A stretch of DNA of 64,000 nt, from the NCBI GenBank assembly GCA_028293125.1, contig JAQGPJ010000081.1:1-64000 (forward strand), written 5' to 3'. Both the position numbers and the translations under genes were made by a program. Each line of letters begins with the position of its first letter. Within the stretch, counting starts at the first letter, position 1. Below are positions 39,727 through 42,297 of this stretch, piece by piece. The notes under the pieces are model-generated. The model saw only the letters and a list, made by a program, of their open reading frames with translations. It was not told the origin of the DNA and ran no database searches. Source of the DNA: Verrucomicrobiales bacterium. Lineage in GTDB: Bacteria; Verrucomicrobiota; Verrucomicrobiia; Verrucomicrobiales; V1-33.

Positions 39727-41034
39727 ATGAATGATTTCCGCCGTTTTCTGGTTCTTCTGCCGGTCTTTTGGTTCACCGTCCTGCCCGTTGCCAAAGCGGA
39801 CACCCTGGAGGAGATGCGGGAGCGGGAGAAAAAGGTACGGGAGGTTGCGGCGCGGGTGCTTCCCTGCGTGGTGGCGGTGACCTCATCCGACGAGAAAAAA
39901 CCGGGCTCCGGCTCCGGGGTGATCGTCTCCGCCGACGGCCTTATTCTCACCGCCGCCCACGTCACCCAGGCCACGGGCAACAGTCTGACGATTATCTTTC
40001 CGGATGGCCGCCGGGTGAAGGGCACCGCCCTCGGCGCGAACCGCACCACGGATGCGGGCATGGCCAAAATCACGGATTCCGGTGAGTGGCCGCATGTGGA
40101 GATCGGCAGCTCCGACAACCTGCGGCTCGGCGACTGGGTCATCGCCATGGGCCATCCCGGCGGATACAGCTTTGACCGGAAGCCTCCCGTGCGTCTGGGC
40201 CGGGTCTGGCGGCGCGATCCTGACGGCGCGATGTTCACCTCCTGCCCGCTGATCGGGGGGGACTCCGGCGGTCCGCTTTTCGATCTGTCCGGGAACGTGG
40301 TCGGCATCAACTCCTCCATCCACGGCAGCGTGGACATGAACCGCCACGTCGCCATCGACACCCTGCGCTTCGACTGGAGCAAGCTGATCAAGGACCAGAC
40401 ATGGGGAAAAATGATCTTCAACACCAGCATGATCACCCGCCCCATCATCGGCGCGGTCTTCGACCGGGAAAGCGTCCATGGGGTGTCGGTCACCGAGGTT
40501 TACGATGACCTCCCGGCGGCGAAGGCGGGACTGAAGGCCGGCGATGTGATCACGAAATTCGATGGCGAGCATGTCAGCACCTACCACGCTCTCCAGCGCC
40601 TGCTGGGCCGCCGGCAGGCCGGGGAGAAAATTGCTCTGACCGCCCAGCGCGATGGCAAGCCCGTGGAGCTCACCCTGGAACTGGCCGCGCGCGCCGCCCG
40701 GTCCAGCGATGACGACAGCACGGCGGAAATCCCGGCGGAGCCCAGTATTCCCACCCCGGAGGGACCGCGTCCCTGGCTGGGGGCGGGGATGGAGAAGACC
40801 GAAGGACGGGACGGCACACAGCTTGCCAGCGTCACCCCGGACAGCCCCGCCGCCCAGGCCGGACTGCGCGAGGGGGATGTGGTGCTTAAAATCAACGGTG
40901 CCGACACTCCGAATCCCACCGCCGCCGCGGATGCCCTGCTGAAGCTGAAGCCCGGCGACAAAGCCTCTTTTCTTCTGCACCGCGACGGCGCGGATCTGAG
41001 CATCGACGTCACTCTCGGCAAAAAAGAACCCTGA
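39727..41034 (+). CDS. HtrA/DegP-like periplasmic serine protease with two PDZ domains
   Basis: The 435-aa protein has a signal peptide (NDFRRFLVLLPVFWFTVLPVAKA). Its trypsin-like domain has an intact triad: His78 in LTAAHV, Asp109 in TTDAGMAKI and Ser180 in GGDSGGPLF. Two PDZ domains follow, with carboxylate-binding regions around VTEVYDDLPAAKAGLKAGDVI and ASVTPDSPAAQAGLREGDVV. It is a predicted periplasmic quality-control protease or chaperone. The frame extends upstream to 39658, but the ATG at 39727 starts the signal peptide. The next gene, 21 bp downstream, is a degenerate relative, and the two are very likely co-transcribed. Confidence 0.9.
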   Translation: MNDFRRFLVLLPVFWFTVLPVAKADTLEEMREREKKVREVAARVLPCVVAVTSSDEKKPGSGSGVIVSADGLILTAAHVTQATGNSLTIIFPDGRRVKGTALGANRTTDAGMAKITDSGEWPHVEIGSSDNLRLGDWVIAMGHPGGYSFDRKPPVRLGRVWRRDPDGAMFTSCPLIGGDSGGPLFDLSGNVVGINSSIHGSVDMNRHVAIDTLRFDWSKLIKDQTWGKMIFNTSMITRPIIGAVFDRESVHGVSVTEVYDDLPAAKAGLKAGDVITKFDGEHVSTYHALQRLLGRRQAGEKIALTAQRDGKPVELTLELAARAARSSDDDSTAEIPAEPSIPTPEGPRPWLGAGMEKTEGRDGTQLASVTPDSPAAQAGLREGDVVLKINGADTPNPTAAADALLKLKPGDKASFLLHRDGADLSIDVTLGKKEP

Positions 41035-41055
41035 ACTTTCCTTCCGCTTTAAGTC

Positions 41056-42297
41056 ATGAAATCCGCTCCGCTTTCCTTCCGCAGCGCGCTGGCTTGCCTC
41101 CTCGCCCTCACCGCTTCCCCCTGTGTCCGCGCCGCGGACGGCTCCGGGGACAGCGGCACCGATTCCGCGAATCCCACCAGCCGCGAAACCCGGGACGCCA
41201 TTAAAAGCGCCCATTCCATCTCCCAGGAGGACGACGGCAACGATCAGGAGCGCTACAGCCGCGAAACCCCGGAGATGGACCGCGCCTGGGCTCCGGTGCT
41301 GGACGAGGCCCGCCGCGGCACCGCCCGCCTGCTGTGCGCCGGCAAGCCCCTCGCCTTCGCCACCGCCGTGAGCGGAAATGGTTATCTCCTCACCAAATCC
41401 AGCGAGATCCACGACTCCAAAGGAAAAGCTCTGGAAAGCCTTTCCGTGCAGTTCCCTGGTGGCATCACCCTCAGCGCCAGAATCACGGACGTGCATCCGC
41501 GCTATGACCTCGCCCTGCTCAAAGTGGACGCCACCGGACTGACCCCCGTGAAGTGGGACACCGGTCCCCTGCCCACGCCCGGCACCTATGTCGCCGCCGT
41601 CACTCCCGAACGCCTGCCCGCCGCGGTGGGGGTGCTGAGCGTGAATGCCCGCAACCTCGACGAGGCCCACAAGGGGTTCCTGGGGATCTCCGTCTCCGCT
41701 GAAACCGGCAAGCTGCGGATCAGCCGGGTCGGCAACGACAGCGCCGCCTCCGAGGCCGGCCTGCTGAAGGACGATGTGCTTAAAAGCATCAATGGGCAGA
41801 CCCTGAGCACCGTCGCCGAATTCATCGAACTGATCGGCTCCCGGAAACCCTACGAGACCGTCAAGGTTCTGATCACCCGCGGGGAGGAGGACAAGGAGCT
41901 CGCCGCTACCCTGCGGCGCCGGCCGGATGGTTTCACCACCCTGGCGGAGGACGCCCGCAACGCCATGAGCGGTCCCGTCAGCCGCAACCGGAGCGGATAC
42001 CCCACCGCCTTCCAGCACGACATGGTGCTCCAGCCCAGCCAGTGCGGCGGTCCGGTGATCGATCTCGACGGCAAAGTCATTGGCCTTAATATCGCCCGCT
42101 CCGGGCGCATTGAATGTTATGCCATCCCCTCCGCCACCATCGTCGGACTGTTGGAGAAAGTGGACACCGGCAAGTTCTCCCGCCCCGAACTGGATGAACT
42201 CCGCCGCGAGGTCAAAAATGTGGAAACCCTGATGGAGCGCCTGCAGAAGGACGCCACCCGCTTGCGGGACCAGCTGAAGGAGGCCGAGGGAGGCTGA
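41056..42297 (+). CDS. degenerate HtrA-like protein with PDZ domain inserted into the protease fold
   Basis: The 413-aa exported protein (signal peptide SFRSALACLLALTASPCVRA) aligns with the trypsin fold of its upstream neighbour but with a rearrangement. The His-bearing strand reads YLLTKSSEIHD, with no His at the position of LTAAHV (S116/E117 there; a His lies two residues later). The Asp strand is kept (RYDLALLKV, D151). The nucleophile motif reads SQCGGPVIDLDGKVIGLNIA, with Cys330 in place of Ser. Between the Asp and the Cys motifs lies a complete PDZ domain (about 195-292, FLGISV, AGLLKDDVLKSINGQTL). The C-terminus is a coiled coil (LDELRREVKNVETLMERLQK). It is likely a non-proteolytic partner or regulator of the upstream protease, though a Cys-dependent activity is not excluded. 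Confidence 0.78.
   Translation: MKSAPLSFRSALACLLALTASPCVRAADGSGDSGTDSANPTSRETRDAIKSAHSISQEDDGNDQERYSRETPEMDRAWAPVLDEARRGTARLLCAGKPLAFATAVSGNGYLLTKSSEIHDSKGKALESLSVQFPGGITLSARITDVHPRYDLALLKVDATGLTPVKWDTGPLPTPGTYVAAVTPERLPAAVGVLSVNARNLDEAHKGFLGISVSAETGKLRISRVGNDSAASEAGLLKDDVLKSINGQTLSTVAEFIELIGSRKPYETVKVLITRGEEDKELAATLRRRPDGFTTLAEDARNAMSGPVSRNRSGYPTAFQHDMVLQPSQCGGPVIDLDGKVIGLNIARSGRIECYAIPSATIVGLLEKVDTGKFSRPELDELRREVKNVETLMERLQKDATRLRDQLKEAEGG

Follow-up and report, generated by a model that had tools for sequence, protein, structure and literature searches.

HtrA proteases, textbook examples of allosteric quality-control enzymes, usually carry their PDZ domains and active site on one chain. 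In the 64-kb stretch of DNA analyzed here (the window), an intact HtrA gene is followed by a second HtrA-like gene with altered catalytic motifs and a PDZ domain lying between them, raising the question of whether its product is a protease at all and what it might do beside its neighbor.

Domain organization and predicted fold

The protein in question, P0001, is the 413-aa product of a forward-strand open reading frame (41056-42297, +). It is predicted to be secreted, beginning with a signal-like hydrophobic N-terminus (residues 1-27, 41056-41136) whose AXA-type end, VRA, points to cleavage there. Its upstream partner P0002 (39727-41034, +; 435 aa) is the active HtrA, consisting of a signal peptide, a trypsin-like domain with the triad H78-D109-S180, and two C-terminal PDZ domains; Pfam accordingly reports a single continuous Trypsin_2 match (62-194) and then two PDZ_2 stretches. 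The codons for His78 (39958-39960) and for Ser180 within GDSGGP (40264-40266) define the columns that we counted across HtrA partners. The two genes are separated by 21 bp (41035-41055), with their reading frames in phase.

In P0001, the segment LTKSSEI (residues 112-118) places Ser116 (41401-41403) at the position of the catalytic His, within a conserved TK[A/S]SE motif, while YDLALLK retains Asp151 (41506-41508) at the catalytic Asp position and QCGGP (residues 329-333) places Cys330 (42043-42045) at that of the Ser. The Pfam Trypsin_2 match is split into two stretches (52.8 bits, cut-off 27.6), the first at residues 104-189, and a PDZ_2 domain (residues 207-285, 41674-41910; 49 bits, cut-off 27) lies between D151 and C330. 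The earlier note had described both reading frames, their 21-bp spacing, these three motifs, and a full PDZ separating the Asp and nucleophile motifs in P0001 with both PDZ domains C-terminal in its neighbor, and the sequence, its translations and Pfam bear this description out. Two features of an active HtrA/DegP are thus missing from P0001: the His-Asp-Ser triad, which is replaced by Ser116/Asp151/Cys330, and a C-terminal PDZ, as neither Pfam nor the predicted structure places one past residue 372. P0001 also falls below the NCBIfam cut-offs of the Do family (66.3 bits versus 416.2) and of the MamO model (33.2 bits versus 800), and no membrane domain was found in its 413 aa, so that it has no MamO-type C-terminal TauE domain.

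We then asked whether the segments on either side of the PDZ form a single trypsin-like barrel pair, the point at which structure prediction could have refuted the insertion proposed in the earlier note. An AlphaFold2 model built with 46 sequences has an overall pLDDT of 87.6, with ten-residue blocks scoring 93-98 from residue 81 to 289 and 95-98 from 311 to 410, and mostly 96-98 over the domain region. It places the N-lobe and first C-lobe strands at residues 80-199 (41293-41652), with β8 ending at residue 199, the PDZ at approximately 207-286, and the rest of the C-lobe at residues 306-372 (41971-42171), comprising β9, which starts at residue 318, the former nucleophile loop and β10-12 (strands 318-358). 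A long C-terminal helix (residues 377-411, 42184-42288) follows in the model and the alignment, mainly among Verrucomicrobial members. Residues 72-372 superpose on the protease domains of DegS, DegP and AlgW with Z-scores of 22-23 over 175-190 residues at 2.4-3 Å (VIA-align), including 190 residues at 2.5 Å for AlgW and 175 of 185 residues at 2.4 Å for DegS without its PDZ (2r3u). With Foldseek alone, the PDZ insertion kept TM-scores low, and VIA-align settled the superposition. With Trypsin_2 above its cut-off, P0001 therefore has the chymotrypsin-type double barrel of the HtrA/DegP (S1C) fold, in which the segments flanking the PDZ come together as a single barrel pair, with the PDZ inserted between them.

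In the model, the PDZ is inserted where HtrA proteases have their sensor loop, L3, which spans residues 176-189 in DegS (PMC11642142). The last residue before the insert, Arg199 (41650-41652), pairs with DegS Arg178 in a HMMER alignment to the DegP-like structure 22kg and the DegS sequence. In DegS, Arg178 belongs to the inter-subunit activation cluster, and signals from PDZ ligands travel to the active site through L3 (PMC11642142). In P0002, MAFFT and HMMER pair an invariant Arg in a 'GR' motif with DegS R178, while the predicted strand limits argue against this pairing; given this conflict, we dropped the idea of a lost L3 Arg in the active partner.

Homologues and loss of catalytic residues

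The segment order of P0001 is shared by 104 distinct homologues, which come from Verrucomicrobiales and Planctomycetota, and is therefore far beyond chance. None of the 104 has His at the His position, where Ser (94), Thr (5), Glu (2), Asn (2) and Asp (1) are found, and none has Ser at the Ser position, which is occupied by Cys (67), Met (14), Val (10), Ala (8) or Ile (5). The catalytic Asp position remains Asp in 100/104. Other positions are near-invariant, including K114 and S309 (100/104 each), R199 (98/104) and R351 of the NIARxxR motif (42106-42108; 104/104), and the carboxylate-loop Gly210 of the PDZ is present in 102/104. These residue counts indicate that the catalytic loss is old and the protein under constraint, and the new near-invariants K114, R351 and S309 indicate that the pseudoprotease is maintained rather than decaying. 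Between the two possibilities raised by the earlier note, a non-catalytic or a Cys-altered protein, the alignment thus favors the former: no homologue has the His, and one member in three has V, M, A or I in place of the Cys. Because Cys330 is replaceable in this way, a Cys protease is unlikely. We do not use HtrA2 S276C as proof that a Ser-to-Cys change inactivates, as S276 is not the nucleophile.

As a single query, P0001 gave no match in a first scan of the genome contigs; a 9-sequence alignment (A2) did, a 20-sequence alignment being too diverse for pattern search. Homologues of the P0001 type are present in 79/113 genomes related to that of the window (E 1e-8 or better), mostly of the same order, and those of this order are Verrucomicrobiales/Verrucomicrobiaceae. 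Elsewhere in the phylum, strong matches are confined to a single family from a different class, where the open frames of 637-871 aa are probably fusions. Among Planctomycetota, 51/294 genomes have such homologues (E 1e-25 or better), with further loci in Pirellulaceae, Planctomycetaceae and others. Since the pair is present in two phyla, P0001 is no recent copy of P0002. Loci L153-L171 of the A2 scan match over a short local stretch and are ordinary HtrAs, so we set them aside.

Association with an active HtrA

At 95/98 testable loci an HtrA either lies directly upstream of the pseudo-HtrA (76) or is fused to it in one polypeptide (19), and the HtrA invariably comes first. At loci L034-L093 it is adjacent or fused in all 59 testable cases, 8 of them fusions. 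A further 43 loci come from other genomes (L094-L152); 4 of these lie at contig ends, and of the 39 testable ones 36 have an HtrA (25 adjacent, 11 fused) and 3 have none. Every one of the 111 HtrA partners, some of them second copies from the same genomes, keeps His-Asp-Ser. The family thus shows the fixed association of an active and a dead HtrA that characterizes a MamO-like working mode. The three exceptions all belong to one Planctomycete clade; no HtrA lies within ~5.7 kb upstream of them (L134:5767-6936, L139:5743-6927, L151:5767-6936), and HtrA-like genes are found elsewhere in these genomes. We searched for a third conserved gene near the HtrA/pseudo-HtrA loci and found none.

On a maximum-likelihood tree, the fused and separate states have switched at least 8 times, a figure that is approximate because the tree search was quick and several forks are poorly supported. 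Many genomes have two pairs, and assigning paralogues from the HtrA or from the pseudo-HtrA gives the same answer in 57/58 clear-signal comparisons (18 genomes), or in 102/153 when near-ties are counted, these comparisons not being independent. Paralogous pairs are co-inherited. The window's own genome has a second, diverged pair (L034:3512-6315; contig C19, ~81.5-84.3 kb), with Ala at the Ser position, whose pseudo-HtrA and HtrA are 33% and 39% identical to those of the window.

To model the pair, we joined P0002 and P0001 by reading the two intervening in-phase stops as Ser, with natural fusions in the alignment. The joined-chain model of 832 residues has a mean pLDDT of 87.0 and a pTM of 0.77, compared with the ~0.5 that we estimate for halves without a defined relative position (d0 ~9.8 Å, 25 Å inter-half error). 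This difference favors a specific interface, with the caveat that joining chains can itself favor packing. We infer, with good support, that P0001 and P0002 form a physical complex, a hetero-oligomer. The association with the active protease put forward in the earlier note is thus supported by adjacency, gene order, fusions, co-inherited pairs and the high-pTM pair model; its further suggestions, heteromerization and a role as adaptor or regulator, are what we infer from that association.

Fused members of the family vary in their domains. Two Planctomycete proteins carry tandem PDZ domains at the site where the dead barrel is interrupted, two in a protein of 962 aa (L196:1247-4132) and four in one of 1146 aa (L197:1244-4681). 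With this variable number of PDZ domains, the site acts like a modular socket for sensors. In three other fusions (L150:5038-6978, L137:4786-6840, L133:4870-6840), an EF-hand-like segment (DRNRDGMLSGNEF) replaces the HtrA PDZ.

Possible modes of action and known precedents

The pairing of active and dead HtrA-type proteins is already known from magnetosomes. In magnetotactic bacteria, the active HtrA-type protease MamE depends for its proteolysis on MamO, a catalytically degenerate trypsin-like protein, and this pairing evolved repeatedly (PMC4794232). MamO/MamE is the nearest functional precedent for P0001/P0002, with a different architecture: the barrel of MamO contains no PDZ, its C-terminal domain is a TauE transporter, and the pairs described here are hosted by Planctomycetota and Verrucomicrobiota. 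With DegS, DegP, DegQ and AlgW (HtrA, MEROPS S1C), P0001 shares the protease fold, PDZ type and L3 position, and equivalents of DegS Arg178/Gln191 are recognizable as R199/Q320. Unlike these enzymes, however, P0001 has lost the triad, carries its PDZ in L3 rather than C-terminally, and has another HtrA, an active one, as its partner. The S41 C-terminal processing proteases (Prc/CtpB) also have an internal rather than a terminal regulatory PDZ, but their fold is unrelated and they are active enzymes. Arabidopsis Deg5/Deg8 likewise combine two HtrA-type proteins of unequal PDZ content, acting synergistically in D1 turnover, but both are catalytic, Deg5 has no PDZ, and there is no insertion (PMC3640471).

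Taken as a whole, these data are on balance best explained by P0001 being a conserved regulatory subunit, obligate and non-catalytic, of a two-part HtrA system, an explanation that we consider probable. P0002 would be the cutting subunit and P0001 a dead subunit of the HtrA fold, its His and Ser lost for good, carrying a peptide-binding PDZ inside L3, the DegS signal loop. The two would meet in the periplasm as a hetero-oligomer, where the embedded PDZ would take the C-termini of peptides or misfolded proteins, shifting L3 of the dead subunit, and the retained Arg199 would then act in trans, turning the adjoining active subunit on (or off). That the embedded PDZ binds C-terminal peptides, consistent with the kept Gly210, is a proposal we hold with moderate confidence, as are the direction and mechanism of such allosteric control in trans. 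The arrangement suggests a division of labor in which one partner senses and the other cuts. More tentatively, and with the odds somewhat against it, the system could be a split HtrA in the strict sense, with catalysis and signal reception on separate subunits, an active subunit that is not switchable without the dead one, and an L3 turned into a PDZ sensor (1-4 PDZ) acting in trans.

Several other roles would also fit parts of the data. P0001 could be a substrate-delivery adaptor or chaperone whose PDZ domain(s) only capture substrates and bring them near HtrA, without allostery. The kept carboxylate loop and the one, two or four PDZ domains at the insertion site of related fused proteins, reminiscent of a binding array, speak for such a role; we nevertheless consider it rather unlikely, since the strong constraint on the inactive barrel (K114, R199, S309, R351) would be needless for a mere PDZ carrier, and the PDZ is found in L3 in every case, never at a terminus. 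A dedicated inhibitor or zymogen-like lock, filling the trimer or the active site until stress removes it, would benefit from the fixed 1:1 co-expression that operon and fusion imply, and DegS is itself autoinhibited by L3 and its unliganded PDZ (PMC11642142). Such a lock would be permanent in the fusions, however, and MamO is needed by MamE rather than inhibitory, making this role unlikely by a wide measure.

An independent, repurposed function such as metal or ligand binding, with pairing for co-regulation only, is in keeping with the metal binding that MamO shows besides activating MamE (PMC4794232) and with the one clade that has no adjacent HtrA. We regard it as very improbable, as pairing at 95/98 loci, 19 fusions and joint paralogue inheritance would be difficult to account for if the two proteins did not act together. 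Finally, an active enzyme with another catalytic set, whether Cys330 or a Lys114/Ser116 dyad, is hardly credible: despite the Cys in P0001 and K114 in 100/104 homologues, Cys (67/104) and Ser116 (94/104) lack the invariance of a true dyad and no His is found anywhere.

If P0001 is a regulatory subunit, a dead subunit with a PDZ in its sensor loop, found in two related phyla and repeatedly fused, would represent a natural separation of sensing from cutting, one in which the relay from PDZ through L3 to the active site could be probed by mixing subunits. The pairs also extend active/inactive HtrA pairing beyond magnetosomes. In the freely accessible papers searched, we found no description of a PDZ insertion in an HtrA barrel, nor of the two-phylum spread and repeated fusion of such pairs, which is weak evidence of novelty. 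Judging from our Pfam and NCBIfam scans, databases likely class such pseudoproteases as common trypsin-like or PDZ proteins, which makes the pair easy to miss.

Two further observations concern individual sequences. In Roseiconus nitratireducens, a single 839-aa protein (L152:3633-6149) combines a degenerate and a second trypsin-like domain, its pseudo-HtrA part being diverged. At the nucleophile (40258-40275 in the window), all HtrA partners shown have GDSGG, with GNSGG instead in E. coli DegS and DegQ and in several unpaired HtrAs of the window's genome; as a sequence feature, GDSGG may be a mark of paired HtrAs.
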